A stretch of 64,000 nt of DNA from Ceratorhiza oryzae-sativae (lineage: Eukaryota; Basidiomycota; Agaricomycetes; Cantharellales; Ceratobasidiaceae), in assembly GCA_030998015.1 (NCBI GenBank), contig JARWMV010000017.1, positions 124,001-188,000 on the forward strand, read 5' to 3'. The notes beneath the pieces are model-generated. The model did not search any database, had not been told where the DNA came from, and saw nothing but the letters and a program-made list of their open reading frames with translations. The position numbers were made by a program, and so were the translations under genes. Each line of letters starts with the position of its first letter. Positions within the stretch are counted from its first letter, which is position 1. Positions 16,500-49,262 of the stretch are shown here, in pieces.

Positions 16500-17900
16500 A
16501 CGGCTGGGAAAATGAAGCGGAAAGAAGCCAGGGAAGAATGTGGCAATCTACAGGTGGCAAATTTGCATACCAACACGAGGTCGTCATCCGACGCAGGCTG
16601 GAGCTGGATGTAGCGGGTGGTTATCAGCGATAGCGGCCACAAACGAGATCCCCATTACCTCACCCAGTCGAGTCCAAGGCCGCGAGACCACGCCTCGGGG
16701 GAGCATTCTGCCGATGAACAATTGCCGCCGAAGGCTCGAAGACAGGTTGGGGGAAGGGAGATGATCAACAGTCTTCCCGAGGAATGAACAAGCCCGTGAC
16801 GAAATCAGGGCTCGTGTCGATCTTGGCGCACCCATCGCTCTGATATTCCCGGTTTGTATTGACGAATTACCTGAAAAGGGCAACATAGGTGCTGGGCGGT
16901 TAGGAAACGCATTCCTGGGTCCAGCGTCGAGGCCGGAATGTTGGAAGATAATGGGTACATCTGAGAGCAGATCGTCCAGAAGATCACGAACCAAGAGTAA
17001 GCCTACACTCACAGAGGTCCACCCACCGCAGCTGACGACGACCATGCCTTCGCACGCCACAACTCGTGCTCGGCCCTGGTCAGACCACACAATTCCCGAG
17101 CGTGAATCAAATTCGAGGATTTATTCGTTCCCGCTGTTGAATCCCCACGGTGAGGGCTCGAGAGTCACATGCCAACATCCTTACGTCCCCCAGCCAGGCC
17201 CACTGATTGCACACACCTGTCGACTAGCGCTATTGAGCATGATTTCGTGGTCACACCACGCGATTAAGCGGCTATCTAAGCGGCCGGAAGCATAACAAAT
17301 TGGTTAGTTATGAAGAGTAGAATCCCAAGGGAGATCGTACACATTTGGATCACATCCAATCGCTAAAGAGAATGCGTAGTAGGCTACAATATTAACCATA
17401 CTGTCTTGGGTGTAGACGTCTGTGGCGCAAAGGGATGACAGAGAATCCGCTAGTAGGTTAAGCCACTCGACCCTTCTGGTAATCGGGCAAAACGGGGTGG
17501 TTCCTGGACGTAACATCTAGGAACCCGCAGGTTAGGTAGGTTCTAGGACTCGTTCCATGATCACTAGTCGGTTCAGAGTCCACAATCATCCAGTCCAAAT
17601 GCCAGCCATCCACTAAAGAGTCGATTTACGCCTTGTCAATGCTGGTGGCGACGAGAGTGAGCTAGTAGAGCGAGCTGGTTCGGCTGTCATTGGTCGTTCA
17701 CGGCTAGCGAACACACGCTTTGAATATTCATGACCGTAGGCGACAAGACGAAACCCACGAGATGACCGTGGCGGGGTGTATGGTGAATATATTTCTGTGT
17801 TTACAAGCCTCGTCATACCCGCTGGTTGTGGCGAAGAACAAGTCACATGAATTTACAACGGGGTTCGGCACAAGCGCCGAGCATCACGCGCATGGTTAGG
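16500..17900. repeat. Host spacer A, copy A1
   Basis: About 1.4 kb that recurs at 22938–24342 (A2) and 36099–37500 (A3). It begins with ACGGCTGG (16500–16507) and ends with TGGTTAGG (17893–17900), both of which act as transposon flanks elsewhere in the array. A1 and A2 differ by a few bases, while A3 shows about ten further substitutions by eye. A 168-codon open frame on the minus strand (16584–17090, and in A2 and A3) contains apparent intron borders and may be part of a real gene, but I cannot assign it. Confidence 0.9.
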
Positions 17901-20900
17901 CAAGGGGTGCCGGAAAACAGGCGCCGGACATGAAGGGGGGGGGAGGGGGGTAGGCAGGGTCTAGAATTCTCGTTGCTAGGAGTGACGCTCACTGCCGTTT
18001 TGGGCTCGCTTAAGTGGTGGCGATGCGCAAATGAGTCACGTGCTGTGAGGCAGAGTGACGCCGGGAGGGCGCAATCGCCGGTCGGAGAGGCTCCCCCCGA
18101 CGTCACAATGTATGCTAGTTATGGATAGATAGTACCGAGTGACGAATGACTCAGCTGCCGGCGCAGTTCTACCGGACACTGGCTAAACGCGTACTCAAAA
18201 TCATAGTGAATATTGAGTTCGAATATTAAGGCCTTGTGGTATGCGAAAAACGGCAAAAAAATTCTTCCTGCTATGCCCGAGCTCTCTGAAATACCTGCTG
18301 ATATCTACCTATCTCTAGCTAGTAAATGCGAGGAAGTAAAAGTAAAACAGTCCGATGCATCACCAATGCTTGTACGAGCGAAGGTATGCTGCTTCTGTGC
18401 CCAATCGGTAAAGTTGGGCAACGGATCAGCACAGCAGATCACTCTCTCATTCAACATATGTACTCTAGGAAATGCCAACTTACCCAAAGAAACTCAGAGA
18501 AACCAAAAAATCGGCTGCCGTTCCTTTGGAGGACTCTAAAGCTACTGTAGTGGAACTATCGCCCCAAGAGCTCACAGCATCATTAGCGACACACCATGCT
18601 AATTTAATTATCTCAGCGTCGCCCTCTGAGCATGAGCTTCAGTCTCTAGACTACTCAACGCGTCACCCAATATCAGGTGAATCGATGAATTGTCCCGGCG
18701 CTTTCTACGACTATGGCATGTCGATGTTTAGTCACTATCCATGGCACCTACACGACACAAGCTTTCTGGATTATGAGTTTAGCTTCATCGATCCTAAAGG
18801 TCGATTCTTCTATGTCCAAAGTCGCCGATGCGCACAAAAATCTCCTGGATTGGCGCAGCATGTAAGGAGTGTAATCAAGTGGTTTTCAGTCGCCAGTTTC
18901 AGGAACTCTTGAAACGGGCTAATCCAAAAGGTTCACTATCAGGACAAGTAAATACACAATATCGAACATACTCGCAGTTATGTGAATTACTCGAAGATAA
19001 GAATTCACGGATCAATACACTTCAGTTAACTGTACGTGACTAGTTGATATAAATCCATTGTCTCCGATTAATTGGCTATCACCTAGAAAATCTCATCGGA
19101 GCGCCCGCATACAGTCACTCTCTGGGCGTATGGATAACCAAAAACAACTTATGTTCGCGCTTGCGCAACATGATGAGTTTGCAGTTGGCCGAATCATTCA
19201 AACAGCGCTGCGCAATAAAGCAGGTGTTAAGACTGTAGTCAAGCGACTAGCCCTTGCTCACCAGGGCTTATTCAGCCCACGTTTGTTCACTGTAGGTTCC
19301 TATTGTTAGTCAAACCAGAGTATATGCTTAAAAATCTTTAGGAAACTCAGCTTGATGCGTCCGCATTGATATGGAAGATTGGGGGACCACGACTTGCATT
19401 CTCGATGGCTCGAGCACTACACTTACCAAGCGTCAGAACTGTTCGTAAACATGTTCATCTACCACGGTTAAAGCCATGTCTTGGATTCCCAACTGAAGCA
19501 GAAGTTTCTGAGAATATCGAGTCGTTCTTTGGACCCGACACAGCATCATCAGTGCCGATTGCGGTGTTGGTATTTCAGTTTTGATGGACGAAGTGGCTAC
19601 CGAACCTCGCCCTCGCTATAGTTTGAACAGGACGCAGTGGTCGGAATCTGCCGTGAGCACGCAGATTTAGTTCATCTCAGTGACCTAAGTACTCGGTCGG
19701 ATGCTCTAGACTCACTACTTGAAGCGCACTCCACTTTGGAATCAGGTAGTTGTCATCGAGCTGCTGAAGCGACAATGGTTGCCATTGCACGGTTTTGGAA
19801 AATCAGACTATAATGCTTCGATTATCCTAGCCTCTCCTACCTGTAAAACCGAGAAGCATGGCAAGCATGCTGAGTTGATTGGAGTTGTGCTAGATAGCTG
19901 GCGGAAATCACCATATGGTGCTACTGTACACGGAGATATCTGGTGTATATGCACTGACGGCGATGCCGGACGACGTATTGCAATATTTCAGCACTGCATG
20001 ACATCTAGTGTTCGACCTGGCTCAGAATTATATCACTTGTTAGGTCACCTACCGCTTTTCAATCTCTGCTGCGGTCCTAACTATATCACACATGACGGCG
20101 ACTATAAACATGAGGAAAAACGTGCGTATCTGCTGGAGGTATATTGGTAACGTTATAACTGAAACTTGACTTAGGCATGGCTTCAGCTTTACGCTCTCGT
20201 TCAGGAATTATAGTCAATGGAACACAGATCACCCCCAAGATGATGGTTCATTATCTTCGCCAACTCGAAGATCTATCAGAATCTCGAATTCTCTCGTTCT
20301 TTGATGGCACCGACCCTCAAAATGTCCCAAAAGCAAACGCCCTTCTAACAAGCATGTATAATGCATCTCAGCTCCCTTCGATTCTCTCTCAAACAGCTCA
20401 CAAGCCTTTTGCTCTACTGGGCGAAGTTCTTGGGTCATTTGTCGTCCCATATACTACGTTGACAATGTCGCTAAAGCAACAGCTCGTTAGTCTAGCAAAA
20501 TGTGCTCATCTCTTGTTTGCGCTGTACCGCCTAGATGGGACTCGATTCTTAACAGGCAGCTCATTTACGATATACAGGCATCCATCAAGAATGTTTTTTT
20601 CTGTGTTGCAAAAACTCAGCTTGTCAACCCGAAACTGCCGTTTTATCTTCTTCAGACTGGAACTGATCGCTTGGAGTCTCGCTTTGGTACATTTCGAACT
20701 GTCACTAGCGATCGAAACGGCGATATATTGCAGATGTGCGAACGTGCTGCATCAGCACAGCAGATTGACGAAATCTATGCTGCTCGTCCTCGCTGGAATC
20801 GAGTTCCTTACCGTTTATCTATGGATGGCAACTCTGGCATCGATCACACAAATCCGGCCTCATGGAAGGGTGATGTGACTGTAGGGAGTGTCGATTTGTA

Positions 20901-22937
20901 TTCTTGTTGGCTTGATGGTCGATCCGAAGCAGCGAAATCTTAACTTGGGCTGGTGCATCGTTTGAATTCGATCCAGCTGTTCTCTCAATTGAATCCCTTC
21001 AAATCGACGTGATGCGCCCCCATGGAAAGTATCCAGGTATACAGGTGGATACTATCGAAATCAATTCACAGCCTGTTCGGCATGAAGATACTCTGGACAG
21101 TGCTCAAACATTTGTCAGTACATTGACTGAGGAGTCTAGCGACCGAATACAGCCTCTCCGCATTGGTGACGATGAGCTCAGTATTGAGCATTTGCTGCCC
21201 ACAACGCCTAACGAGCCCACTCAGAGTGATAGTAGAAAAGGCTGGATACTTGTCGACGGGCAGCGTGTACATCTTGAATCTGCAGTAAGATATGTTTTGG
21301 GGCTAGAGGGTGGTCCTCGGTCCACTGACCGACTTCGACGTATATGTGGCTATACCCGTTACCTGAACCCTTCGGCTGAGACTCAATCAGTTCTTGGGAA
21401 TGATTTTCATGTCTCAGAGCTGGTAGCAACCTTCTTGTTGGCCCAAATCGAGTTTCAATCGCAATTATACGAGTTACAAATATTCTGGCGCGAGATGGGC
21501 GCATGCTAGAGTCTATTGCCGAAAAACACTTTTGCGAGTCGGGGATTACGCTTTCTGGACAAATACTTGCCATTGAATACGACTGCGGAGTCTGGTACTG
21601 GACCCAAAAGTATGATGGTGTTGCAAAGACAGCGGCTTCTGCTCATCGAAAGCGGAGCTCGGGTGCGGACTTTAGCGCTAGGTTTTCGCTGCCTGTCAAT
21701 CCTTCACTAGTTGAATGGCGTGGCGAGCAGGTCTGGGCATTTGAAGATATTCAATTGCGCGCACTTATGGATGATTTATGGCGTAAATGCGCAAAAGATG
21801 TACCTGAAGACAATATCCCTAGTTGTCAGTCAAGCGCATCGTTCCCGTACCGTAGCTACAATTGTAAGTACACTAACACCTCTACAAGCCGAGCTGTACA
21901 TTAAACCTTCTCACAGCTGAACATGTGTTGTATCACCAAGTCGCCACTGATCATTATTGCAACTCAGCTCGCCCAATCGATGGAACGTGCTTCATTTGTG
22001 GAAAAAAGATCAAGATCAAGCAAAAAAATGCGCATACATGTAGGGCAACATTATTGAGCTTGCAAGCGAACCTCTCTAGCGCACCCAGCTCGGAAGCGAT
22101 GCCGGGAAACGTAAGAGTCTCCTTAATTGCTCCAGCTACAATCTAAATAAAGCAATACAACAGCTAGCCGGATCCCCCTGCGTTTTTCTGCGGCAGAGCA
22201 GGTACATGTCGATCAAATGCAGAGCGACAGCTCCAGCCTACTAAGACGACCCCGAGTTACCTCTAACTGCCCATACAGAGACGCTCTCACATATTCCTCG
22301 TGCCCACGTTCGTCGAAATCGAACCCCTGCACCAACCGGCCGTAGAGTGCCCATGCTGCCCTCCCGAGAGCTCAACGTCTGGACTTACGCACTGCGGTCT
22401 CACATTCTTTGCGATTCATGGCCCCGAAGCGGTTGTCATACAAGATAAAAAACTTCGGGAATACGACCCGACAGAGAGTGAGTTTGAGTGGATGGGTGTC
22501 ACTAGACAGAATCAGCTCGTACAAAACTCAAAACCCTACCAAGCGCAAGCGGGATAACGGACGATCGCGGCCCTTCAAATAATGATAATCAAGTCCAAAA
22601 ACGTCAATGTACAGATTAATTTATTCGTTAACATGCTAGATACATGTTTAAGTCAGTGTCCGTAGAACTGCGCCGGCAGCTGAGTCATTCGTCACTCGGT
22701 ACTATCTATCCCATAACTAGCATACATTGTGACGTCGGGGAGAGCCTCTCCGACCGGCGATTGCGCCCTCCCGGCGTCACTCTGCCTCACAGCACGTGAC
22801 TCATTTGCGCATCGCCACCACTTAAGCGAGCCCAAAACGGCAGTGAGCGTCACTCCTAGCAACGAGAATTCTAGACCCCTGCCTACCCCCCTCCCCCCCC
22901 CTTCATGTCCGGCGCCTGTTTTCCGGCACCACCCCTG
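17901..22937 (+). mobile_element. P-like TIR DNA transposon, copy T1 (recombinant flanks)
   Basis: 5,037 bp. Inverted repeats lie at 17901–18181 and 22654–22937. The left flank is TGGTTAGG and the right flank is ACGGCTGG (22938–22945), so the two sides do not form a target duplication. Compared with T2–T5 it has more than a dozen small insertions and deletions. Confidence 0.9.
18273..22619 (+). pseudogene. P-like transposase, copy in T1 (many indels)
   Basis: Same six-exon gene as described for T5. Small indels break it throughout. Examples are a 5-bp gain near 18430, lost single bases near 18486, 18848, 19554, 20557 and 20935, and a gained T near 19795. The spacing of the lesions over the whole gene is unlike the other copies, which have one to four. 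It is not translatable as given. Confidence 0.85.
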
Positions 22938-24342
22938 ACGGCTGGGAAAATGAAGCGGAAAGAAGCCAGGGAAGAATGTGGCAATCTACAGGTGGCAAAT
23001 TTGCATACCAACACGAGGTCGTCATCCGACGCAGGCTGGAGCTGGATGTAGCGGGTGGTTATCAGCGATAGCGGCCACAAACGAGATCCCCATTACCTCA
23101 CCCAGTCGAGTCCAAGGCCGCGAGACCACGCCTCGGGGGAGCATTCTGCCGATGAACAATTGCCGCCGAAGGCTCGAAGACAGGTTGGGGGAAGGGAGAT
23201 GATCAACAGTCTTCCCGAGGAATGAACAAGCCCGTGACGAAATCAGGGCTCGTGTCGATCTTGGCGCACCCATCGCTCTGATATTCCCGGTTTGTATTGA
23301 CGAATGACCTGAAAAGGGCAACATAGGTGCTGGGCGGTTAGGAAACGCATTCCTGGGTCCAGCGTCGAGGCCGGAATGTTGGAAGATAATGGGTACATCT
23401 GAGAGCAGATCGTCCAGAAGATCACGAACCAAGAGTAAGCCTACACTCACAGAGGTCCACCCACCGCAGCTGACGACGACCATGCCTTCGCACGCCACAA
23501 CTCGTGCTCGGCCCTGGTCAGACCACACAATTCCCGAGCGTGAATCAAATTCGAGGATTTATTCGTTCCCGCTGTTGAATCCCCACGGGTGAGGGCTCGA
23601 GAGTCACATGCCAACATCCTTACGTCCCCACAGCCAGGCCCACTGATTGCACACACCTGTCGACTAGCGCTATTGAGCATGATTTCGTGGTCACACCACG
23701 CGATTAAGCGGCTATCTAAGCGGCCGGAAGCATAACAAATTGGTTAGTTATGAAGAGTAGAATCCCAAGGGAGATCGTACACATTTGGATCACATCCAAT
23801 CGCTAAAGAGAATGCGTAGTAGGCTACAATATTAACCATACTGTCTTGGGTGTAGACGTCTGTGGCGCAAAGGGATGACAGAGAATCCGCTAGTAGGTTA
23901 AGCCACTCGACCCTTCTGGTAATCGGGCAAAACGGGGTGGTTCCTGGACGTAACATCTAGGAACCCGCAGGTTAGGTAGGTTCTAGGACTCGTTCCATGA
24001 TCACTAGTCGGTTCAGAGTCCACAATCATCCAGTCCAAATGCCAGCCATCCACTAAAGAGTCGATTTACGCCTTGTCAATGCTGGTGGCGACGAGAGTGA
24101 GCTAGTAGAGCGAGCTGGTTCGGCTGTCATTGGTCGTTCACGGCTAGCGAACACACGCTTTGAATATTCATGACCGTAGGCGACAAGACGAAACCCACGA
24201 GATGACCTTGGCGGGGTGTATATGGTGAATATATTTCTGTGTTTACAAGCCTCGTCATACCCGCTGGTTGTGGCGAAGAACAAGTCACATGAATTTACAA
24301 CGGGGTTCGGCACAAGCGCCGAGCATCACGCGCATGGTTAGG
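22938..24342. repeat. Host spacer A, copy A2
   Basis: Near-identical to A1. It starts with the ACGGCTGG flank of T1 and ends with the TGGTTAGG target duplication of T2. Confidence 0.9.
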
Positions 24343-24625
24343 CAAGGGGGTGCCGGAAAACAGGCGCCGGACATGAAGGGGGGGGGAGGGGGGTAGGCAG
24401 GGTCTAGAATTCTCGTTGCTAGGAGTGACGCTCACTGCCGTTTTGGGCTCGCTTAAGTGGTGGCGATGCGCAAATGAGTCACGTGCTGTGAGGCAGAGTG
24501 ACGCCGGGAGGGCGCAATCGCCGGTCGGAGAGGCTCCCCCCGACGTCACAATGTATGCTAGTTATGGGATAGATAGTACCGAGTGACGAATGACTCAGCT
24601 GCCGGCGCAGTTCTACCGGACACTG
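24343..24625 (+). repeat. Left terminal inverted repeat of T2 (~283 bp)
   Basis: Matches the reverse complement of 29096–29377 almost base for base up to CCGGACACTG, after which the two ends diverge. It contains a G-rich tract, a CACGTG box and a GACGTCA motif. The equivalent arms exist in all five copies. Confidence 0.9.
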
Positions 24626-24716
24626 GCTAAACGCGTACTCAAAATCATAGTGAATATTGAGTTCGAATATTAAGGCCTTGTGGTATGCGAAAAACGGCAA
24701 AAAAATTCTTCCTGCT

Positions 24717-27700
24717 ATGCCCGAGCTCTCTGAAATACCTGCTGATATCTACCTATCTCTAGCTAGTAAATGCGAGGAAGTAAAAGTAAAACAGTCCGAT
24801 GCATCACCAATGCTTGTACGAGCGAAGGTATGCTGCTTCTGTGCCCAATCGGTAAAGTTGGGCAACGGATCAGCAGATCACTCTCTCATTCAACATATGT
24901 ACTCTAGGAAATGCCAACTTACCCAGAAGAAACTCAGAGAAACCAAAAAATCGGCTGCCGTTCCTTTGGAGGACTCTAAAGCTACTGTAGTGGAACTATC
25001 GCCCCAAGAGCTCACAGCATCATTAGCGACACACCATGCTAATTTAATTATCTCAGCGTCGCCCTCTGAGCATGAGCTTCAGTCTCTAGACTACTCAACG
25101 CGTCACCCAATATCAGGTGAATCGATGAATTGTCCCGGCGCTTTCTACGACTATGGCATGTCGATGTTTAGTCACTATCCATGGCACCTACACGACACAA
25201 GCTTTCTGGATTATGAGTTTAGCTTCATCGATCCTAAAGGTCGATTCTTCTATGTCCAAAGTCGCCGATGCGCACAAAAATCTCCTGGGATTGGCGCAGC
25301 ATGTAAGGAGTGTAATCAAGTGGTTTTCAGTCGCCAGTTTCAGGAACTCTTGAAACGGGCTAATCCAAAAGGTTCACTATCAGGACAAGTAAATACACAA
25401 TATCGAACATACTCGCAGTTATGTGAATTACTCGAAGATAAGAATTCACGGATCAATACACTTCAGTTAACTGTACGTGACTAGTTGATATAAATCCATT
25501 GTCTCCGATTAATTGGCTATCACCTAGAAAATCTCATCGGAGCGCCGCATACAGTCACTCTCTGGGCGTATGGATAACCAAAAACAACTTATGTTCGCGC
25601 TTGCGCAACATGATGAGTTTGCAGTTGGCCGAATCATTCAAACAGCGCTGCGCAATAAAGCAGGTGTTAAGACTGTAGTCAAGCGACTAGCCCTTGCTCA
25701 CCAGGGCTTATTCAGCCCACGTTTGTTCACTGTAGGTTCCTATTGTTAGTCAAACCAGAGTATATGCTTAAAAATCTTTAGGAAACTCAGCTTGATGCGT
25801 CCGCATTGATATGGAAGATTGGGGGACCACGACTTGCATTCTCGATGGCTCGAGCACTACACTTACCAAGCGTCAGAACTGTTCGTAAACATGTTCATCT
25901 ACCACGGTTAAAGCCATGTCTTGGATTCCCAACTGAAGCAGAAGTTTCTGAGAATATCGAGTCGTTCTTTGGACCCGACACAGCATCATCAGTGCCGATT
26001 GCGGTGTTGGTATTTCAGTTTTGATGGACGAAGTGGCTACCGAACCTCGCCCTCGCTATAGTGTTGAACAGGACGCAGTGGTCGGAATCTGCCGTGAGCA
26101 CGCAGATTTAGTTCATCTCAGTGACCTAAGTACTCGGTCGGATGCTCTAGACTCACTACTTGAAGCGCACTCCACTTTGGAATCAGGTAGTTGTCATCGA
26201 GCTGCTGAAGCGACAATGGTTGCCATTGCACGGTTTGGAAAATCAGACTATAATGCTTCGATTATCCTAGCCTCTCCTACCTGTAAAACCGAGAAGCATG
26301 GCAAGCATGCTGAGTTGATTGGAGTTGTGCTAGATAGCTGGCGGAAATCACCATATGGTGCTACTGTACACGGAGATATCTGGTGTATATGCACTGACGG
26401 CGATGCCGGACGACGTATTGCAATATTTCAGCACTGCATGACATCTAGTGTTCGACCTGGCTCAGAATTATATCACTTGTTAGGTCACCTACCGCTTTTC
26501 AATCTCTGCTGCGGTCCTAACTATATCACACATGACGGCGACTATAAACATGAGGAAAAACGTGCGTATCTGCTGGAGGTATATTGGTAACGTTATAACT
26601 GAAACTTGACTTAGGCATGGCTTCAGCTTTACGCTCTCGTCAGGAATTATAGTCAATGGAACACAGATCACCCCCAAGATGATGGTTCATTATCTTCGCC
26701 AACTCGAAGATCTATCAGAATCTCGAATTCTCTCGTTCTTTGATGGCACCGACCCTCAAAATGTCCCAAAAGCAAACGCCCTTCTAACAAGCATGTATAA
26801 TGCATCTCAGCTCCCTTCGATTCTCTCTCAAACAGCTCACAAGCCTTTTGCTCTACTGGGCGAAGTTCTTGGGTCATTTGTCGTCCCATATACTACGTTG
26901 ACAATGTCGCTAAAGCAACAGCTCGTTAGTCTAGCAAAATGTGCTCATCTCTTGTTTGCGCTGTACCGCCTAGATGGGACTCGATTCTTAACAGGGCAGC
27001 TCATTTACGATATACAGGCATCCATCAAGAATGTTTTTTTCTGTGTTGCAAAAACTCAGCTTGTCAACCCGAAACTGCCGTTTTATCTTCTTCAGACTGG
27101 AACTGATCGCTTGGAGTCTCGCTTTGGTACATTTCGAACTGTCACTAGCGATCGAAACGGCGATATATTGCAGATGTGCGAACGTGCTGCATCAGCACAG
27201 CAGATTGACGAAATCTATGCTGCTCGTCCTCGCTGGAATCGAGTTCCTTACCGTTTATCTATGGATGGCAACTCTGGCATCGATCACACAAATCCGGCCT
27301 CATGGAAGGGTGATGTGACTGTAGGGAGTGTCGATTTGTATTCTTGTTGGCTTGATGGTCGATCCGAAGCAGCCGAAATCTTAACTTGGGCTGGTGCATC
27401 GTTTGAATTCGATCCAGCTGTTCTCTCAATTGAATCCCTTCAAATCGACGTGATGCGCCCCCATGGAAAGTATCCAGGTATACAGGTGGATACTATCGAA
27501 ATCAATTCACAGCCTGTTCGGCATGAAGATCTCGTGGACAGTGCTCAAACATTTGTCAGTACATTGACTGAGGAGTCTAGCGACCGAATACAGCCTCTCC
27601 GCATTGGTGACGATGAGCTCAGTATTGAGCATTTGCTGCCCACAACGCCTAACGAGCCCACTCAGAGTGATAGTAGAAAAGGCTGGATACTTGTCGACGG

Positions 27701-29060
27701 GCAGCGTGTACATCTTGAATCTGCAGTAAGATATGTTTTGGGGCTAGAGGGTGGTCCTCGGTCCACTGACCGACTTCGACGTATATGTGGCTATACCCGT
27801 TACCTGAACCCTTCGGCTGAGACTCAATCAGTTCTTGGGAATGATTTTCATGTCTCAGAGCTGGTAGCAACCTTCTTGTTGGCCCAAAATCGAGTTTCAA
27901 TCGCAATTATACGAGTTACAAATATTCTGGCGCGAGATGGGCGCATGCTAGAGTCTATTGCCGAAAAACACTTTTGCGAGTCGGGGATTACGCTTTCTGG
28001 ACAAATACTTGCCATTGAATACGACTGCGGAGTCTGGTACTGGACCCAAAAGTATGATGGTGTTGCAAAGACAGCGGCTTCTGCTCATCGAAAGCGGAGC
28101 TCGGGTGCGGACTTTAGCGCTAGGTTTTCGCTGCCTGTCAATCCTTCACTAGTTGAATGGCGTGGCGAGCAGGTCTGGGCATTTGAAGATATTCAATTGC
28201 GCGCACTTATGGATGATTTATGGCGTAAATGCGCAAAAGATGTACCTGAAGACAATATCCCTAGTTGTCAGTCAAGCGCATCGTTCCCGTACCGTAGCTA
28301 CAATTGTAAGTACACTAACACCTCTACAAGCCGAGCTGTACATTAAATTCCTTCTCACAGCTGAACATGTGTTGTATCACCAAGTCGCCACTGATCATTA
28401 TTGCAACTCAGCTCGCCCAATCGATGGAACGTGCTTCATTTGTGGAAAAAAGATCAAGATCAAGCAAAAAATGCGCATACATGTAGGGCAACATTTATTG
28501 AGCTTGCAAGCGAACCTCTCTAGCGCACCCAGCTCGGAAGCGATGCCGGGAAACGTAAGAGTCTCCTTAATTGCTCCAGCTACAATCTAAATAAAGCAAT
28601 ACAACAGCTAGCCGGATCCCCCTGCGGTTTCTGCGGCAGAGCAGGTACATGTCGATCAAATGCAGAGCGACAGCTCCAGCCTACTAAGACGCTCCGAGTT
28701 ACCTCTAACTGCCCATACAGAGACGCTCTCACATATTCCTCGTGCCCTCGTTCGTCGAAATCGAACCCCTGCACCAACCGGCCGGTAGAGTGCCCATGCT
28801 GCCCTCCCGAGAGCTCGAACGTCTGGACTTACGCACTGCGGTCTCACATTCTTGCGATTCATGGCCCCGAAGCGGTTGTCATACAAGATAAAAAACTTCG
28901 GGAATACGACCCGACAGAGAGTGAGTTTGAGTGGATGGGTGTCACTAGACAGAATCAGCTCGTACAAAACTCAAAACCTACCAAGCGCAAGCGGGATACG
29001 GACGATCGCGGCCCTTCAAATAATGATAATCAAGTCCAAAAACGTCAATGTACAGATTAA
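24717..29060 (+). pseudogene. P-like transposase, copy in T2 (two single-base losses)
   Basis: Exon map: 24717–25472, 25528–25731, 25782–26561, 26615–28305, 28361–28554 and 28608–29060, with introns of 50–55 nt. Compared with T3–T5 it lacks one G near 25991 (exon 3) and one T near 26640 (start of exon 4), each of which shifts the frame. Everything else reads as in T5. Confidence 0.85.
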
Positions 29061-36098: not shown

Positions 36099-37500
36099 AC
36101 GGCTGGGAAAATGAAGCGGAAAGAAGCCAGGGAAGAATGTGGCAATCTACAGGTGGCAAATTTGCATACCAACACGAGGTCGTCATCCGACGCAGGCTGG
36201 AGCTGGATGTAGCGGGTGGTTATCAGCGATAGCGGCCACAAACGAGATCCCCATTACCTCACCCAGTCGAGTCCAAGGCCGCGAGACCACGCCTCGGGGG
36301 AGCATTCTGCCGATGAACAATTGCCGCCGAAGGCTCGAAGACAGGTTGGGGGAAGGGAGATGATCAACAGTCTTCCCGAGGAATGAACAAGCCCGTGACG
36401 AAATCAGGGCTCGTGTCGATCTTGGCGCACCCATCGCTCTGATATTCCCGGTTTGTATTGACGAATTACCTGAAAAGGGCAACATAGGTGCTGGGCGGTT
36501 AGGAAACGCATTCCTGGGTCCAGCGTCGAGGCCGGAATGTTGGAAGATAATGGGTACATCTGAGAGCAGATCGTCCAGAAGATCACGAACCAAGAGCAAG
36601 CCTACACTCACAGAGGTCCACCCACCGCAGCTGACGACGACCATGTCTTCGCACGCCACAACTCGTGCTCGGCCCTGGTCAGACCACACAATTCCCGAGC
36701 GTGAATCAAATTCGAGGATTTATTCGTTCCCGCTGTTGAATCCCCGCGGGTGAGGGCTCGAGAGTCACATGCCAACGTCCTTACCTCCCCACAGCCAGGC
36801 CCACTGATTGCACCCACCTGTCGACTAGCGCTATTGAGCATGATTTCGTGGTCACACCACGCGATTAAGCGGCTATCTAAGCGGCCGGAAGCATAACAAA
36901 TTGGTTAGTTATGAAGAGTAGAATCCCAAGGGAGATCGTACACATTTGGATCACATCCAATCACTAAAGAGAATGCGTAGTAGGCTACAATATTAACCAT
37001 ACTGTCTTGGGTGTAGACGTCTGTGGCGCAAAGGGATGACAGAGAATCCGCTAGTAGGTTAAGCCACTCGACCCTTCTGGTAATCGGGCAAAACGGGGTG
37101 GTTCCTGGACGTAACATCTAGGAACCCGCAGGTTAGGTAGGTTCTAGGACTCCTTCCATGATCACTAGTCGGTTCAGAGTCCACAATCATCCAGTCCAAA
37201 TGCCAGCCATCCACTAAAGAGTCGATTTACGCCTTGTCAATGCTGGTGGCGACGAGAGTGAGCTAGTAGAGCGAGCTGGTTCGGCTGTCATTGGTCGTTC
37301 ACGGCTAGCGAACACACGCTTTGAATATTCATGACCGTAGGCGACAAGACGAAACCCACGACATGACCTTGGTGGGGTGTATGTAGTGAATATATTTCTG
37401 TGTTTACAAGCCTCGTCATACCGCTAGTTGTGGCGAAGAACAGTCACATGAATTTACAACGGGGTTCGCACAAGCGCCGAGCATCACGCGCATGGTTAGG
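36099..37500. repeat. Host spacer A, copy A3
   Basis: Same layout as A1 and A2, but about ten substitutions by eye distinguish it from A2 (for example at 36597, 36646 and 36778). It starts with ACGGCTGG and ends with TGGTTAGG. Confidence 0.9.
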
Positions 37501-40500
37501 CAAGGGGGTGCCGGAAAACAGGCGCCGGACATGAAGGGGGGGGGAGGGGGGTAGGCAGGGTCTAGAATTCTCGTTGCTAGGAGTGACGCTCACTGCCGTT
37601 TTGGGCTCGCTTAAGTGGTGGCGATGCGCAAATGAGTCACGTGCTGTGAGGCAGAGTGACGCCGGGAGGGCGCAATCGCCGGTCGGAGAGGCTCCCCCCG
37701 ACGTCACAATGTATGCTAGTTATGGGATAGATAGTACCGAGTGACGAATGACTCAGCTGCCGGCGCAGTTCTACCGGACACTGGCTAAACGCGTACTCAA
37801 AATCATAGTGAATATTGAGTTCGAATATTAAGGCCTTGTGGTATGCGAAAAACGGCAAAAAAATTCTTCCTGCTATGCCCGAGCTCTCTGAAATACCTGC
37901 TGATATCTACCTATCTCTAGCTAGTAAATGCGAGGAAGTAAAAGTAAAACAGTCCGATGCATCACCAATGCTTGTACGAGCGAAGGTATGCTGCTTCTGT
38001 GCCCAATCGGTAAAGTTGGGCAACGGATCAGCAGATCACTCTCTCATTCAACATATGTACTCTAGGAAATGCCAACTTACCCAGAAGAAACTCAGAGAAA
38101 CCAAAAAATCGGCTGCCGTTCCTTTGGAGGACTCTAAAGCTACTGTAGTGGAACTATCGCCCCAAGAGCTCACAGCATCATTAGCGACACACCAGCTGCT
38201 AATTTAATTATCTCAGCGTCGCCCTCTGAGCATGAGCTTCAGTCTCTAGACTACTCAACGCGTCACCCAATATCAGGTGAATCGATGAATTGTCCCGGCG
38301 CTTTCTACGACTATGGCATGTCGATGTTTAGTCACTATCCATGGCACCTACACGACACAAGCTTTCTGGATTATGAGTTTAGCTTCATCGATCCTAAAGG
38401 TCGATTCTTCTATGTCCAAAGTCGCCGATGCGCACAAAAATCTCCTGGGATTGGCGCAGCATGTAAGGAGTGTAATCAAGTGGTTTTCAGTCGCCAGTTT
38501 CAGGAACTCTTGAAACGGGCTAATCCAAAAGGTTCACTATCAGGACAAGTAAATACACAATATCGAACATACTCGCAGTTATGTGAATTACTCGAAGATA
38601 AGAATTCACGGATCAATACACTTCAGTTAACTGTACGTGACTAGTTGATATAAATCCATTGTCTCCGATTAATTGGCTATCACCTAGAAAATCTCATCGG
38701 AGCGCCGCATACAGTCACTCTCTGGGCGTATGGATAACCAAAAACAACTTATGTTCGCGCTTGCGCAACATGATGAGTTTGCAGTTGGCCGAATCATTCA
38801 AACAGCGCTGCGCAATAAAGCAGGTGTTAAGACTGTAGTCAAGCGACTAGCCCTTGCTCACCAGGGCTTATTCAGCCCACGTTTGTTCACTGTAGGTTCC
38901 TATTGTTAGTCAAACCAGAGTATATGCTTAAAAATCTTTAGGAAACTCAGCTTGATGCGTCCGCATTGATATGGAAGATTGGGGGACCACGACTTGCATT
39001 CTCGATGGCTCGAGCACTACACTTACCAAGCGTCAGAACTGTTCGTAAACATGTTCATCTACCACGGTTAAAGCCATGTCTTGGATTCCCAACTGAAGCA
39101 GAAGTTTCTGAGAATATCGAGTCGTTCTTTGGACCCGACACAGCATCATCAGGTGCCGATTGCGGTGTTGGTATTTCAGTTTTGATGGACGAAGTGGCTA
39201 CCGAACCTCGCCCTCGCTATAGTGTTGAACAGGACGCAGTGGTCGGAATCTGCCGTGAGCACGCAGATTTAGTTCATCTCAGTGACCTAAGTACTCGGTC
39301 GGATGCTCTAGACTCACTACTTGAAGCGCACTCCACTTTGGAATCAGGTAGTTGTCATCGAGCTGCTGAAGCGACAATGGTTGCCATTGCACGGTTTGGA
39401 AAATCAGACTATAATGCTTCGATTATCCTAGCCTCTCCTACCTGTAAAACCGAGAAGCATGGCAAGCATGCTGAGTTGATTGGAGTTGTGCTAGATAGCT
39501 GGCGGAAATCACCATATGGTGCTACTGTACACGGAGATATCTGGTGTATATGCACTGACGGCGATGCCGGACGACGTATTGCAATATTTCAGCACTGCAT
39601 GACATCTAGTGTTCGACCTGGCTCAGAATTATATCACTTGTTAGGTCACCTACCGCTTTTCAATCTCTGCTGCGGTCCTAACTATATCACACATGACGGC
39701 GACTATAAACATGAGGAAAAACGTGCGTATCTGCTGGAGGTATATTGGTAACGTTATAACTGAAACTTGACTTAGGCATGGCTTCAGCTTTACGCTCTCG
39801 TTCAGGAATTATAGTCAATGGAACACAGATCACCCCCAAGATGATGGTTCATTATCTTCGCCAACTCGAAGATCTATCAGAATCTCGAATTCTCTCGTTC
39901 TTTGATGGCACCGACCCTCAAAATGTCCCAAAAGCAAACGCCCTTCTAACAAGCATGTATAATGCATCTCAGCTCCCTTCGATTCTCTCTCAAACAGCTC
40001 ACAAGCCTTTTGCTCTACTGGGCGAAGTTCTTGGGTCATTTGTCGTCCCATATACTACGTTGACAATGTCGCTAAAGCAACAGCTCGTTAGTCTAGCAAA
40101 ATGTGCTCATCTCTTGTTTGCGCTGTACCGCCTAGATGGGACTCGATTCTTAACAGGGCAGCTCATTTACGATATACAGGCATCCATCAAGAATGTTTTT
40201 TTCTGTGTTGCAAAAACTCAGCTTGTCAACCCGAAACTGCCGTTTTATCTTCTTCAGACTGGAACTGATCGCTTGGAGTCTCGCTTTGGTACATTTCGAA
40301 CTGTCACTAGCGATCGAAACGGCGATATATTGCAGATGTGCGAACGTGCTGCATCAGCACAGCAGATTGACGAAATCTATGCTGCTCGTCCTCGCTGGAA
40401 TCGAGTTCCTTACCGTTTATCTATGGATGGCAACTCTGGCATCGATCACACAAATCCGGCCTCATGGAAGGGTGATGTGACTGTAGGGAGTGTCGATTTG

Positions 40501-42539
40501 TATTCTTGTTGGCTTGATGGTCGATCCGAAGCAGCCGAAATCTTAACTTGGGCTGGTGCATCGTTTGAATTCGATCCAGCTGTTCTCTCAATTGAATCCC
40601 TTCAAATCGACGTGATGCGCCCCCATGGAAAGTATCCAGGTATACAGGTGGATACTATCGAAATCAATTCACAGCCTGTTCGGCATGAAGATCTCGTGGA
40701 CAGTGCTCAAACATTTGTCAGTACATTGACTGAGGAGTCTAGCGACCGAATACAGCCTCTCCGCATTGGTGACGATGAGCTCAGTATTGAGCATTTGCTG
40801 CCCACAACGCCTAACGAGCCCACTCAGAGTGATAGTAGAAAAGGCTGGATACTTGTCGACGGGCAGCGTGTACATCTTGAATCTGCAGTAAGATATGTTT
40901 TGGGGCTAGAGGGTGGTCCTCGGTCCACTGACCGACTTCGACGTATATGTGGCTATACCCGTTACCTGAACCCTTCGGCTGAGACTCAATCAGTTCTTGG
41001 GAATGATTTTCATGTCTCAGAGCTGGTAGCAACCTTCTTGTTGGCCCAAAATCGAGTTTCAATCGCAATTATACGAGTTACAAATATTCTGGCGCGAGAT
41101 GGGCGCATGCTAGAGTCTATTGCCGAAAAACACTTTTGCGAGTCGGGGATTACGCTTTCTGGACAAATACTTGCCATTGAATACGACTGCGGAGTCTGGT
41201 ACTGGACCCAAAAGTATGATGGTGTTGCAAAGACAGCGGCTTCTGCTCATCGAAAGCGGAGCTCGGGTGCGGACTTTAGCGCTAGGTTTTCGCTGCCTGT
41301 CAATCCTTCACTAGTTGAATGGCGTGGCGAGCAGGTCTGGGCATTTGAAGATATTCAATTGCGCGCACTTATGGATGATTTATGGCGTAAATGCGCAAAA
41401 GATGTACCTGAAGACAATATCCCTAGTTGTCAGTCAAGCGCATCGTTCCCGTACCGTAGCTACAATTGTAAGTACACTAACACCTCTACAAGCCGAGCTG
41501 TACATTAAATTCCTTCTCACAGCTGAACATGTGTTGTATCACCAAGTCGCCACTGATCATTATTGCAACTCAGCTCGCCCAATCGATGGAACGTGCTTCA
41601 TTTGTGGAAAAAAGATCAAGATCAAGCAAAAAATGCGCATACATGTAGGGCAACATTTATTGAGCTTGCAAGCGAACCTCTCTAGCGCACCCAGCTCGGA
41701 AGCGATGCCGGGAAACGTAAGAGTCTCCTTAATTGCTCCAGCTACAATCTAAATAAAGCAATACAACAGCTAGCCGGATCCCCCTGCGGTTTCTGCGGCA
41801 GAGCAGGTACATGTCGATCAAATGCAGAGCGACAGCTCCAGCCTACTAAGACGCTCCGAGTTACCTCTAACTGCCCATACAGAGACGCTCTCACATATTC
41901 CTCGTGCCCTCGTTCGTCGAAATCGAACCCCTGCACCAACCGGCCGGTAGAGTGCCCATGCTGCCCTCCCGAGAGCTCGAACGTCTGGACTTACGCACTG
42001 CGGTCTCACATTCTTGCGATTCATGGCCCCGAAGCGGTTGTCATACAAGATAAAAAACTTCGGGAATACGACCCGACAGAGAGTGAGTTTGAGTGGATGG
42101 GTGTCACTAGACAGAATCAGCTCGTACAAAACTCAAAACCTACCAAGCGCAAGCGGGATACGGACGATCGCGGCCCTTCAAATAATGATAATCAAGTCCA
42201 AAAACGTCAATGTACAGATTAATTTATTCGTTAACATTGCTAGATACATGTTTAAGTCAGTGTCCGGTAGAACTGCGCCGGCAGCTGAGTCATTCGTCAC
42301 TCGGTACTATCTATCCCATAACTAGCATACATTGTGACGTCGGGGAGAGCCTCTCCGACCGGCGATTGCGCCCTCCCGGCGTCACTCTGCCTCACAGCAC
42401 GTGACTCATTTGCGCATCGCCACCACTTAAGCGAGCCCAAAACGGCAGTGAGCGTCACTCCTAGCAACGAGAATTCTAGACCCTGCCTACCCCCCTCCCC
42501 CCCCTTCATGTCCGGCGCCTGTTTTCCGGCACCCCCCTG
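37501..42539 (+). mobile_element. P-like TIR DNA transposon, copy T4
   Basis: 5,039 bp with a perfect TGGTTAGG duplication (37493–37500 and 42540–42547). Inverted repeats are 37501–37783 and 42258–42539. It sits at the same A/B position as T2. Confidence 0.93.
37875..42222 (+). pseudogene. P-like transposase, copy in T4 (one frameshift in exon 1)
   Basis: Only one lesion is visible. Near 38194 the sequence reads CACCAGCTGCTAAT where the other copies read CACCATGCTAAT, a net gain of two bases that ends the frame at 38207. All later exons, including the full-length exon 4 (about 39776–41467) and the zinc-finger exons, read as in T2/T5. Confidence 0.85.
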
Positions 42540-44224
42540 TGGTTAGGTATTGCGCGTAGGGAGGACTGGGAATTGATCGGAATCGATTGGTTGAGGTATC
42601 GTTGATGTATACTCCACGAGGAATTACTCGAACAAATATGATACACAAAAGAGACGAAGCTCAACTCTGTTGTATCATTGCTGATGAATACTAGCCCAAT
42701 TGTATTTGGCGCATCGAAAAGGATATCAAAATTCAAATTCTGATTTACGTGGCATTTCAGCGAGTGAAGACGAAGGAATGCTAGATTGATGGTGAGCCAG
42801 CATCTGGTGGCTGATTTCTTCTAGGAGCGATTTGTGCGCATCCATGTAGGGAACACGAAGGCAACGAAGGGACGCAGGGAATTTGATTTGGATAAGAGTG
42901 CGAAATTATAGCGATAGCTCATCCGCGCAATTATGTGATTGCAAGAAGCGAAGTGGCATCATTGCGTCCAATGGCGATCGCGTGAACAAATACTAGCGTC
43001 GGCAATTTGTCATTACTTGGGTTCTCAGTACACTGGGCTTATTAAGGGTGTCGCAAGCATAAAGAAGAATGGGTTCTGGGTAGAATCAAGAAACTCATAA
43101 AAAGCCTTCAGCCCGAATAGCTCGGTCGCCAGTTGCTGAGTCATGCATATATGCGTGATTTTGGCGCTAATCATACTCCCGCGGATGAGAGTGTCAGGAT
43201 GAGGATCAGCTGTGGTTGTAACAAACCTAACCGACGGATCGAGACAGTGCGACACACACGCTACAAGATCAATGACCTCGAAGAAAGACAGAGGCGATCA
43301 GTTCAAGAAACGCCTTGAGCTCCCTGTTCGGGCGATTAGGCATCTGCTGAGACAGAAATCGCCGACTCGTCAGGTCCAGGGCGGCCGTGACGTTGAAGTA
43401 ACTACATCTATGGCTTTTCCTCATGCGGATTAATCTGACATGTGAGCTATCATTCGATCTAAACAGAGGCCTGCGTCGGCAAGTGGCGCGTCAGTGCCTA
43501 CCCTGGGTGTTGTCGACGAGTCCAATGTCCAGCCCCAAGCCATGCTTGCTGAACGGGATACCAGAATTGAAAATACGCACCCAGAAGAAATGGGATCGGA
43601 TTCTGTACGAATTGATATGTCCGCCCAAGAGCGGGCAGCTAGCGAAGGGTTTGCCACAAATTCGACTCAAACATGTGAGTTCGTGCTTTCGAATAGTGAA
43701 GTAACTACTTTACGGAAACGCCGCAATGCTCATCGTCGTCCCTCAGCTTCGAATGAAATCCAGAAAACAGGAAAAATGAATCCCCATGTCTTGGACTCTC
43801 TTGAAACGAGCTCGGTAGTACGAGATTCATCTGAAGGCACAGTTACCAAAGGCGTCGTATCCATGGCGGCCAAATCTTCTCTCGCCGCGCTCTATAATGC
43901 CGCTTGACTTGTGCCAAATCTTCAGTCTGCAGCCGGGGTAATAATGGAATGTATCAAAAACGTGACTGTGAGCTTACCTAATCAACAACGAATTCCAATT
44001 GCTGATAGTAGCCAGATGGCCGTCGCTAACCGAAGCGACTATGAGGAGATCGCGTCGGACATTTCAAAAACAATTAGCATACTAGAGAAACATTTGGGCG
44101 AACTGACCACGCAACAGATGGCAGTTGGGCTGGAAGCCACAATCAAGTCAGTTCCGTCGTCATTGGTGTCGAATGTGACTGATTTGGATGCAGCGAGCTA
44201 AAGCTTCAAGGCGAGCGTATCAAA
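42540..44224. repeat. Host spacer B, copy B2
   Basis: Second copy of spacer B, joined on the right to T5 through GTATCAAA (44217–44224). Its right half (from ~43446) is the 5' part of the NACHT–WD40 gene that continues after T5. Confidence 0.9.
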
Positions 44225-47200
44225 CAAGGGGGTGCGGCCGGAAACAGGCGCCGGACATGAAGGGGGGGGGAGGGGGGTAGGCAGGGTCTAGAATTCTCGT
44301 TGCTAGGAGTGACGCTCACTGCCGTTTTGGGCTCGCTTAAGTGGTGGCGATGCGCAAATGAGTCACGTGCTGTGAGGCAGAGTGACGCCGGGAGGGCGCA
44401 ATCGCCGGTCGGAGAGGCTCCCCCGACGTCACAATGTATGCTAGTTATGGGATAGATAGTACCGAGTGACGAATGACTCAGCTGCCGGCGCAGTTCTACC
44501 GGACACTGGCTAAACGCGTACTCAAAATCATAGTGAATATTGAGTTCGAATATTAAGGCCTTGTGGTATGCGAAAAACGGCAAAAAAATTCTTCCTGCTA
44601 TGCCCGAGCTCTCTGAAATACCTGCTGATATCTACCTATCTCTAGCTAGTAAATGCGAGGAAGTAAAAGTAAAACAGTCCGATGCATCACCAATGCTTGT
44701 ACGAGCGAAGGTATGCTGCTTCTGTGCCCAATCGGTAAAGTTGGGCAACGGATCAGCAGATCACTCTCTCATTCAACATATGTACTCTAGGAAATGCCAA
44801 CTTACCCAGAAGAAACTCAGAGAAACCAAAAAATCGGCTGCCGTTCCTTTGGAGGACTCTAAAGCTACTGTAGTGGAACTATCGCCCCAAGAGCTCACAG
44901 CATCATTAGCGACACACCATGCTAATTTAATTATCTCAGCGTCGCCCTCTGAGCATGAGCTTCAGTCTCTAGACTACTCAACGCGTCACCCAATATCAGG
45001 TGAATCGATGAATTGTCCCGGCGCTTTCTACGACTATGGCATGTCGATGTTTAGTCACTATCCATGGCACCTACACGACACAAGCTTTCTGGATTATGAG
45101 TTTAGCTTCATCGATCCTAAAGGTCGATTCTTCTATGTCCAAAGTCGCCGATGCGCACAAAAATCTCCTGGGATTGGCGCAGCATGTAAGGAGTGTAATC
45201 AAGTGGTTTTCAGTCGCCAGTTTCAGGAACTCTTGAAACGGGCTAATCCAAAAGGTTCACTATCAGGACAAGTAAATACACAATATCGAACATACTCGCA
45301 GTTATGTGAATTACTCGAAGATAAGAATTCACGGATCAATACACTTCAGTTAACTGTACGTGACTAGTTGATATAAATCCATTGTCTCCGATTAATTGGC
45401 TATCACCTAGAAAATCTCATCGGAGCGCCGCATACAGTCACTCTCTGGGCGTATGGATAACCAAAAACAACTTATGTTCGCGCTTGCGCAACATGATGAG
45501 TTTGCAGTTGGCCGAATCATTCAAACAGCGCTGCGCAATAAAGCAGGTGTTAAGACTGTAGTCAAGCGACTAGCCCTTGCTCACCAGGGCTTATTCAGCC
45601 CACGTTTGTTCACTGTAGGTTCCTATTGTTAGTCAAACCAGAGTATATGCTTAAAAATCTTTAGGAAACTCAGCTTGATGCGTCCGCATTGATATGGAAG
45701 ATTGGGGGACCACGACTTGCATTCTCGATGGCTCGAGCACTACACTTACCAAGCGTCAGAACTGTTCGTAAACATGTTCATCTACCACGGTTAAAGCCAT
45801 GTCTTGGATTCCCAACTGAAGCAGAAGTTTCTGAGAATATCGAGTCGTTCTTTGGACCCGACACAGCATCATCAGGTGCCGATTGCGGTGTTGGTATTTC
45901 AGTTTTGATGGACGAAGTGGCTACCGAACCTCGCCCTCGCTATAGTGTTGAACAGGACGCAGTGGTCGGAATCTGCCGTGAGCACGCAGATTTAGTTCAT
46001 CTCAGTGACCTAAGTACTCGGTCGGATGCTCTAGACTCACTACTTGAAGCGCACTCCACTTTGGAATCAGGTAGTTGTCATCGAGCTGCTGAAGCGACAA
46101 TGGTTGCCATTGCACGGTTTGGAAAATCAGACTATAATGCTTCGATTATCCTAGCCTCTCCTACCTGTAAAACCGAGAAGCATGGCAAGCATGCTGAGTT
46201 GATTGGAGTTGTGCTAGATAGCTGGCGGAAATCACCATATGGTGCTACTGTACACGGAGATATCTGGTGTATATGCACTGACGGCGATGCCGGACGACGT
46301 ATTGCAATATTTCAGCACTGCATGACATCTAGTGTTCGACCTGGCTCAGAATTATATCACTTGTTAGGTCACCTACCGCTTTTCAATCTCTGCTGCGGTC
46401 CTAACTATATCACACATGACGGCGACTATAAACATGAGGAAAAACGTGCGTATCTGCTGGAGGTATATTGGTAACGTTATAACTGAAACTTGACTTAGGC
46501 ATGGCTTCAGCTTTACGCTCTCGTTCAGGAATTATAGTCAATGGAACACAGATCACCCCCAAGATGATGGTTCATTATCTTCGCCAACTCGAAGATCTAT
46601 CAGAATCTCGAATTCTCTCGTTCTTTGATGGCACCGACCCTCAAAATGTCCCAAAAGCAAACGCCCTTCTAACAAGCATGTATAATGCATCTCAGCTCCC
46701 TTCGATTCTCTCTCAAACAGCTCACAAGCCTTTTGCTCTACTGGGCGAAGTTCTTGGGTCATTTGTCGTCCCATATACTACGTTGACAATGTCGCTAAAG
46801 CAACAGCTCGTTAGTCTAGCAAAATGTGCTCATCTCTTGTTTGCGCTGTACCGCCTAGATGGGACTCGATTCTTAACAGGGCAGCTCATTTACGATATAC
46901 AGGCATCCATCAAGAATGTTTTTTTCTGTGTTGCAAAAACTCAGCTTGTCAACCCGAAACTGCCGTTTTATCTTCTTCAGACTGGAACTGATCGCTTGGA
47001 GTCTCGCTTTGGTACATTTCGAACTGTCACTAGCGATCGAAACGGCGATATATTGCAGATGTGCGAACGTGCTGCATCAGCACAGCAGATTGACGAAATC
47101 TATGCTGCTCGTCCTCGCTGGAATCGAGTTCCTTACCGTTTATCTATGGATGGCAACTCTGGCATCGATCACACAAATCCGGCCTCATGGAAGGGTGATG

Positions 47201-49262
47201 TGACTGTAGGGAGTGTCGATTTGTATTCTTGTTGGCTTGATGGTCGATCCGAAGCAGCCGAAATCTTAACTTGGGCTGGTGCATCGTTTGAATTCGATCC
47301 AGCTGTTCTCTCAATTGAATCCCTTCAAATCGACGTGATGCGCCCCCATGGAAAGTATCCAGGTATACAGGTGGATACTATCGAAATCAATTCACAGCCT
47401 GTTCGGCATGAAGATCTCGTGGACAGTGCTCAAACATTTGTCAGTACATTGACTGAGGAGTCTAGCGACCGAATACAGCCTCTCCGCATTGGTGACGATG
47501 AGCTCAGTATTGAGCATTTGCTGCCCACAACGCCTAACGAGCCCACTCAGAGTGATAGTAGAAAAGGCTGGATACTTGTCGACGGGCAGCGTGTACATCT
47601 TGAATCTGCAGTAAGATATGTTTTGGGGCTAGAGGGTGGTCCTCGGTCCACTGACCGACTTCGACGTATATGTGGCTATACCCGTTACCTGAACCCTTCG
47701 GCTGAGACTCAATCAGTTCTTGGGAATGATTTTCATGTCTCAGAGCTGGTAGCAACCTTCTTGTTGGCCCAAAATCGAGTTTCAATCGCAATTATACGAG
47801 TTACAAATATTCTGGCGCGAGATGGGCGCATGCTAGAGTCTATTGCCGAAAAACACTTTTGCGAGTCGGGGATTACGCTTTCTGGACAAATACTTGCCAT
47901 TGAATACGACTGCGGAGTCTGGTACTGGACCCAAAAGTATGATGGTGTTGCAAAGACAGCGGCTTCTGCTCATCGAAAGCGGAGCTCGGGTGCGGACTTT
48001 AGCGCTAGGTTTTCGCTGCCTGTCAATCCTTCACTAGTTGAATGGCGTGGCGAGCAGGTCTGGGCATTTGAAGATATTCAATTGCGCGCACTTATGGATG
48101 ATTTATGGCGTAAATGCGCAAAAGATGTACCTGAAGACAATATCCCTAGTTGTCAGTCAAGCGCATCGTTCCCGTACCGTAGCTACAATTGTAAGTACAC
48201 TAACACCTCTACAAGCCGAGCTGTACATTAAATTCCTTCTCACAGCTGAACATGTGTTGTATCACCAAGTCGCCACTGATCATTATTGCAACTCAGCTCG
48301 CCCAATCGATGGAACGTGCTTCATTTGTGGAAAAAAGATCAAGATCAAGCAAAAAATGCGCATACATGTAGGGCAACATTTATTGAGCTTGCAAGCGAAC
48401 CTCTCTAGCGCACCCAGCTCGGAAGCGATGCCGGGAAACGTAAGAGTCTCCTTAATTGCTCCAGCTACAATCTAAATAAAGCAATACAACAGCTAGCCGG
48501 ATCCCCCTGCGGTTTCTGCGGCAGAGCAGGTACATGTCGATCAAATGCAGAGCGACAGCTCCAGCCTACTAAGACGCTCCGAGTTACCTCTAACTGCCCA
48601 TACAGAGACGCTCTCACATATTCTCGTGCCCTCGTTCGTCGAAATCGAACCCCTGCACCAACCGGCCGGTAGAGTGCCCATGCTGCCCTCCCGAGAGCTC
48701 GAACGTCTGGACTTACGCACTGCGGTCTCACATTCTTGCGATTCATGGCCCCGAAGCGGTTGTCATACAAGATAAAAAACTTCGGGAATACGACCCGACA
48801 GAGAGTGAGTTTGAGTGGATGGGTGTCACTAGACAGAATCAGCTCGTACAAAACTCAAAACCTACCAAGCGCAAGCGGGATACGGACGATCGCGGCCCTT
48901 CAAATAATGATAATCAAGTCCAAAAACGTCAATGTACAGATTAATTTATTCGTTAACATTGCTAGATACATGTTTAAGTCAGTGTCCGGTAGAACTGCGC
49001 CGGCAGCTGAGTCATTCGTCACTCGGTACTATCTATCCCATAACTAGCATACATTGTGACGTCGGGGAGAGCCTCTCCGACCGGCGATTGCGCCCTCCCG
49101 GCGTCACTCTGCCTCACAGCACGTGACTCATTTGCGCATCGCCACCACTTAAGCGAGCCCAAAACGGCAGTGAGCGTCACTCCTAGCAACGAGAATTCTA
49201 GACCCTGCCTACCCCCCTCCCCCCCCCTTCATGTCCGGCGCCTGTTTTCCGGCACCCCCCTG
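44225..49262 (+). mobile_element. P-like TIR DNA transposon, copy T5 (inside the NACHT–WD40 gene)
   Basis: 5,038 bp with a perfect 8-bp duplication GTATCAAA (44217–44224 and 49263–49270). Inverted repeats are 44225–44508 and 48980–49262. The insertion splits a coding exon: host codons read ..GERIK on the left and IKAKQLRN on the right. Confidence 0.94.
44600..48944 (+). CDS. P-element-like transposase, best preserved copy (six exons, ~1,359 aa)
   Basis: Exons 44600–45355, 45411–45614, 45665–46445, 46499–48190, 48246–48439 and 48493–48944 join in phase. The residue numbers assume these joins. A Cys/His cluster lies near residues 39–66 (CCFC..H..C). Next come a possible first catalytic D in VLMDEVATEPRPRY (~403), a second in CTDGDAGRR (~526), THDGDYKHEEKR (~572) and DRLESRFG (~748). 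The order DE.., SDG-like, ..KH..KR.. and D.LE..FG.. resembles the P-element/THAP9 transposase core. The C-terminus has a CFIC..H..H finger and a long Cys-rich finger (PCGFCGR..CPCC..H..H). An 8-bp duplication and ends starting with CA fit the P superfamily. One base is missing near 48622 (exon 6), so this copy may lose its last finger. The start at 44600 is the first ATG in a frame that opens just upstream. Confidence 0.75.

Follow-up and report, generated by a model that had tools for sequence, protein, structure and literature searches.

Among the closest described systems, maize Ac/Ds elements (hAT superfamily) make tandem direct duplications by reversed-ends transposition; in the available part of the study by Zhang et al. 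(PMC3744419), an element and footprint missing at one breakpoint separate this mechanism from exchange. Ends of different copies likewise act together and rearrange nearby DNA in the hybrid element insertion of the Drosophila P element (PMC3744419; defined in PMC2775673, both seen in part), and the origin of ectopic recombination between copies of Galileo, a P-superfamily element of Drosophila buzzatii with long inverted repeats, was read from exchanged target duplications (excerpts of PMC2775673). Within Dikarya, P-superfamily elements have been described from rust fungi (P-1_PSt and P-1_MLP; PMC3164196, in part), those of Melampsora with 8-base target duplications. The accessible portion of a review on transposons and tandem arrays (PMC9659126) holds general statements alone, and literature searches pairing P elements with Agaricomycetes, or with both basidiomycetes and Rhizoctonia, found no papers. 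Here we analyse a 64,000-base stretch of the Ceratorhiza oryzae-sativae genome (C17:124001-188000, hereafter the window; assembly of 48.8 Mb in 253 contigs) in which five near-identical P-element-like transposon copies (T1–T5) are set between repeated A and B blocks.

We tentatively favour a path in which reversed-ends transposition was followed by one unequal exchange with a haplotype diverged by 1–3%, with T carried over from one background to the other. Events of this kind are already known. As in the maize duplications (PMC3744419, in part), the duplication starts exactly at a transposon end, one element retains half of its former 8-base duplication while its opposite flank is new, and the outer breakpoint holds neither element nor footprint. 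Unlike them, T belongs to the P superfamily and sits in a fungus, a further exchange step is involved, and the reciprocal deletion is not seen here. Galileo, as far as the excerpts go (PMC2775673), has 7-base duplications and inversions between opposed copies, whereas T has 8-base duplications, direct copies and a tandem duplication; Galileo copies are chimeric, while the T copies are too alike to reveal chimeric joints (0–3 substitutions among T2–T5, with T1 noisy). The hosts of P-1_PSt and P-1_MLP are rusts rather than relatives of Rhizoctonia and Ceratobasidium, and the available part of that report (PMC3164196) mentions no array.

Array order and target duplications

The order along the window is X-A1-T1-A2-T2-B1-T3-A3-T4-B2-T5-Y, all repeated blocks and T copies lying on the + strand, with X and Y denoting the left and right flanking DNA. 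Each A copy begins with ACGGCTGG (at 16500, 22938, and 36099), each B copy with TGGTTAGG (at 29378 and 42540), and Y begins with GTATCAAA at 49263. The two units measure 13,161 and 13,164 bases. An earlier note on this DNA had given the 8-base flanks, the order and the unit coordinates, all exact to the base. A genome search placed full-length A at three places, all inside the array, and full-length B at two, likewise inside, plus two matches of 43–46 bases.

The flanks divide the T copies into two kinds. T2 (24343–29377) and T4 (37501–42539) have TGGTTAGG on both sides and T5 (44225–49262) has GTATCAAA on both, marking these three as true insertions. T1 (17901–22937) is a joint with TGGTTAGG on the left and ACGGCTGG on the right; T3 (31057–36098) is a joint with GTATCAAA on the left and ACGGCTGG on the right, combining the left flank of T5 with the right flank of T1. 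The same division had been proposed before, and the flanks bear it out. Random pairs of 8-mers from the window agree at a rate of 6.5e-5 (200,000 draws), and the perfect pairs at T2, T4, and T5 are therefore not chance. Elsewhere in the window, ACGGCTGG occurs at 59809 (+) and 15500 (−), TGGTTAGG at 1948 (−), and GTATCAAA at 30783 and 43951, within B1 and B2.

At the left edge of the array, A1 (16500–17900) adjoins X without a transposon: here ACGGCTGG is single and uninterrupted (16500–16507), an empty site with no T, no T-end remnant and no footprint. By contrast, T stands at both ends of the 13.16-kb duplicated unit, with T1 before A2 (22938–24342), T3 midway and T5 last. The T at A/B and the T at B/Y both lie on the + strand, so that their inner ends face each other.

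These positions set a limit on how the array can have grown. The earlier note had placed its growth at transposon ends, which is right in kind, but had derived it from X-A-T-B-T-Y by two unequal exchanges. In symbolic closure over three to four rounds (at most 5 or 6 T per chromosome), no T|A junction arises from that starting order, even when chromosomes lacking T and exchanges within A or B are allowed, because exchange preserves the right neighbours of T, which here are B and Y only. Accordingly, we rejected a history in which exchange involved nothing but the insertions now seen at A/B and B/Y, as it leaves no T to the left of A. Since T1 and T3 both precede A at ACGGCTGG, some event placed a T end at X/A; a third event at this site is required, either an unseen insertion on another chromosome or a reversed-ends transposition.

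Divergence of the spacers and of T

The units are not equally alike along their length. A2 and A3 (36099–37500) differ by 14 substitutions in 1402 positions (1.0%), 13 of them specific to A3 and all 13 past alignment column 498, and B1 (29378–31056) and B2 (42540–44224) by 43 in 1679 (2.6%) plus a 6-base indel; the differences between B1 and B2 start close to the T boundary, the indel 21 bases and the first substitution 79 bases away from it. T2 and T4, in contrast, show no substitution and 5 gap runs in about 5035 bases (Fisher p 9e-27 against B and 5e-10 against A). T3 and T5 differ by 3 substitutions and 8 gap runs, and pairs among T2–T5 range over 0–3 substitutions and 5–8 gap runs. The locus had been called a 13.16-kb tandem duplication: the unit lengths stand, while the notion of one copied unit does not, as A and B differ and T hardly does.

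T1 and its surroundings call for caution. Against each other array copy, T1 shows 7–9 substitutions and 27–31 gap runs, and A1—only 2 substitutions and 3 gap runs from A2—shows small indels from 17148 onward, whereas no indels separate the members of the two longest other repeat pairs of the window. T1 and late A1 look like an unpolished stretch, which lowers our trust in T1.

A1, A2, and B1 look like one background (B1 being grouped with A2 by its position), and A3 and B2, second allele-like versions of their blocks, look like another. Because A and B differ between the units while T hardly does, the pattern suggests two haplotypes and a T younger than both, with later spread or homogenisation of the transposon. 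In Rhizoctonia solani AG8-1 and AG8-3, nuclear haplotype pairs of about 50 Mb each are 96.8% and 98.1% identical, that is, 1.9–3.2% different (PMC12774589, in part), and the divergence of A and B between the units has the same size. T2 and T4 occupy the same 8-base site in the two backgrounds; since two separate insertions would hardly hit one and the same base, T was probably copied across by conversion or repair. We rejected, by eye, repeat-induced point mutation as the source of the differences in B, the changes running in both directions and 10 of the 43 being transversions.

We also searched the assembly for a second haplotype. Of X (window 14000–16499), the first 537 bases recur on contig C6 at 99% identity, and the part from 14537 on matches the window alone, where it is joined to A1. 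A 401-base piece of Y has no near-identical second copy, its other matches being four places at 65–77%, and 3 kb of contig C233 matches itself alone; the second haplotype was thus not kept at these stretches. Two further searches were weak: that with contig C30, where the first 1.7 kb of the stretch is repeat and 40 of 829 candidates were scored, and that with 10 kb of Y, which did not return the window itself and scored 39 of 116 candidates.

Routes to the array

The path we favour begins with insertion of T, in direct orientation, at two sites 1.7 kb apart, giving X-A-T-B-T-Y, a step shown by the perfect 8-base duplications. The inner ends that face each other, one on the right of T(A/B) and one on the left of T(B/Y), most likely then behaved as a single transposon while the DNA replicated and would have entered ACGGCTGG at the X/A site of the sister chromatid, yielding X-A1-T1-A2-T2-B-T-Y and a reciprocal X-T-Y deletion with the same 8-base target. 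An unequal homologous exchange between T(B/Y) and the T1 of a chromosome from a 1–3% diverged haplotype would have produced T3 and the 13.16-kb step. T, younger than the A/B divergence, may have been copied between the backgrounds by gap repair or gene conversion. Several features that reversed-ends transposition predicts are present: direct elements with facing inner ends, the flanks TGGTTAGG/ACGGCTGG at T1, and an X/A1 site with neither element nor footprint. In one step the mechanism puts a T end at X/A, leaves X/A1 empty and gives T1 its observed flanks, and the missing T and footprint are the published argument for it (PMC3744419, in part). Hybrid element insertion gives X-A-T-A-B-T-Y or X-A-T-B-T-A-T-B-Y in the symbolic model, each lacking a T present here.

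Several observations weigh against this path. The reciprocal X-T-Y chromosome was not seen in the assembly, X from 14537 on matching the window only. A3, from the other haplotype, also has T at its left, which calls for an extra interhomologue exchange or conversion; the first 498 alignment columns of A, without A3-specific differences, no more than hint at such an event (p about 0.002, a post hoc value computed with 14 sites where 13 would have been better). T4 at the exact site of T2 in a diverged background requires conversion, the T copies are too similar to show chimeras, and the read support of the indel-noisy T1 may be thin. The most complete version of our reading—that a P-superfamily reversed-ends transposition seeded the array naturally in a fungus, that transposon-limited gap repair then placed exact copies of the same T at the corresponding sites of another nuclear haplotype, 1–3% diverged, and that units from the two haplotypes now lie in tandem, with near-identical T between diverged spacers—is distinctly unlikely to hold as a whole.

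Exchange alone could account for the array if a third insertion, T0, had once occupied ACGGCTGG at X/A on some chromosomes: T(A/B) recombining with T0 would give T1, and T(B/Y) recombining with T0 or T1 would give T3, the left chromosome being free of T0. The flank pattern is the signature of exchanged duplications, ACGGCTGG is as long as the target sites of T, and in the symbolic model two exchanges reach the observed order provided that chromosomes with and without T0 coexist. With T0 on every chromosome, however, up to three exchanges fail to produce the order (at most 6 T per chromosome). There is also no X-T junction, the only X in the assembly (from 14537 on) being joined to A1, and A1 and A2 are almost identical, yet would be expected to stem from two different chromosomes. 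An exchange should further leave an element at both ends of the A1-T1-A2 step, but no T precedes A1—excusable, by the symbolic model, if the exchange partner lacked T0. We consider this route unlikely. T3 is an exchange product by its flanks whether T1 arose through T0 or through reversed ends, by the reasoning applied to Galileo (PMC2775673, in part). A different possibility concerns the assembly itself, since a second haplotype missing from the X, Y, and C233 stretches means that an assembler could have made the 13.16-kb step by joining haplotypes at T. The two nuclear haplotypes of a heterokaryon (A2/B1 and A3/B2) would then have been strung together at the near-identical 5-kb T, with X and Y collapsed, and the real locus would be roughly X-A-T-A-T-B-T-Y per nucleus. 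The differences between units (1.0% in A, 2.6% in B) are consistent with those of the AG8 pairs and the 48.8-Mb assembly with the size of one haplotype set of about 50 Mb (PMC12774589, in part), and the indel noise of T1 and late A1, foreign to the two longest other repeat pairs, also speaks for such a join. Yet an assembler presumably reuses only junctions found in reads, which requires T|A junctions to occur somewhere; A2 resembles the first allele and has T on its left, so A1-T1-A2 at least is not a simple two-haplotype join; and a T copy on contig C27 still shows 17 differences against T2 and T4, so not every T copy was flattened by the pipeline. We regard such a join as possible but doubtful.

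Finally, the array might be old, with A and B diverging after duplication and the T copies kept alike by conversion within the array, which would explain the unequal divergence without haplotypes. If a T copy excised and the gap was then filled from elsewhere in the array, as in P elements, T alone would be replaced, which counts in favour of such a history. Against it, a copy on another contig (C12) is equally close—1 substitution from T2 and likewise 1 from T4—and recent transposition is the simpler explanation; moreover, with B differences 21 and 79 bases from the T boundary, conversion tracts would repeatedly have to stop near the T ends. An old array is highly improbable.

The transposon family and its setting

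T is a recently active cut-and-paste transposon of the P superfamily, 5.04 kb long, with terminal inverted repeats of 283–289 bases in each of the five array copies. A genome search located it at no fewer than seven places—at least these: five in the array and others on C12 and C27—and a perfect 8-base target site duplication flanks five of the seven copies, namely T2, T4, T5, C12 (CCCAGGCC), and C27 (GGCTAAGT), the joints T1 and T3 being without one. The C27 copy (L036, C27:22970-29504) is split by a 1.49-kb insert with, as judged by eye, direct terminal repeats and a short flanking duplication, possibly a small non-autonomous long terminal repeat (LTR) element. A pattern search for T ends returned 58 matches in the genome against 27 for a reversed control, 11 of the 58 being ends of known T copies by position.

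In T5, the transposase is read from two + strand open frames: one of 261 amino acids (45689–46474) that corresponds in alignment to the N-terminal half of its relatives' catalytic region, the relatives reading on into the next frame, and one of 576 amino acids (46501–48231) holding the remainder. The closest relative of the latter among the matches listed is from Ceratobasidium sp. AG-Ba (77% identical; 7,995 candidates scored), and all of the 49 listed relatives with a named organism come from Ceratobasidium or Rhizoctonia. In fold, the transposase agrees with that of P elements. The three main T5 frames matched no Pfam family and searches of PDB sequences gave no match; three of seven relatives match PF21787 (TNP-like RNase H), with E values of 0.006–0.09, all below the cut-off. 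Five more distant frames (L056–L060, on C11, C53 twice, C253, and C235) are 29–31% identical to the T transposase and perhaps represent other P-type families in this genome.

The window holds other elements and genes. To the left of A1 lie a CVNH-domain frame (14771–15805, − strand) and a copia-type LTR element (8025–12981) whose two 293-base direct repeats differ by 1 base and enclose frames for gag and reverse transcriptase. An inverted repeat of 1,004 bases (2767–3770 and 7023–8026; 97% complementary, no indels) ends where the copia element starts. Directly right of T5 are NACHT and WD40-repeat frames (49594–52351), followed by a 2.27-kb element (53208–55479) with 84-base inverted ends and many full or partial genomic copies at 86–99% identity.

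Should the array prove an assembly error, it would be a useful warning that what looks like a tandem duplication in a heterokaryon can be the effect of an active 5-kb transposon. If it is real, the target duplications of a single family separate aberrant transposition (T1) from homologous exchange (T3), two mechanisms with similar products. The locus also adds to the Rhizoctonia/Ceratobasidium group a P-superfamily element with near-identical recent copies, and the contrast between near-identical T and diverged spacers makes it a testable case of transposon-limited homogenisation between haplotypes.
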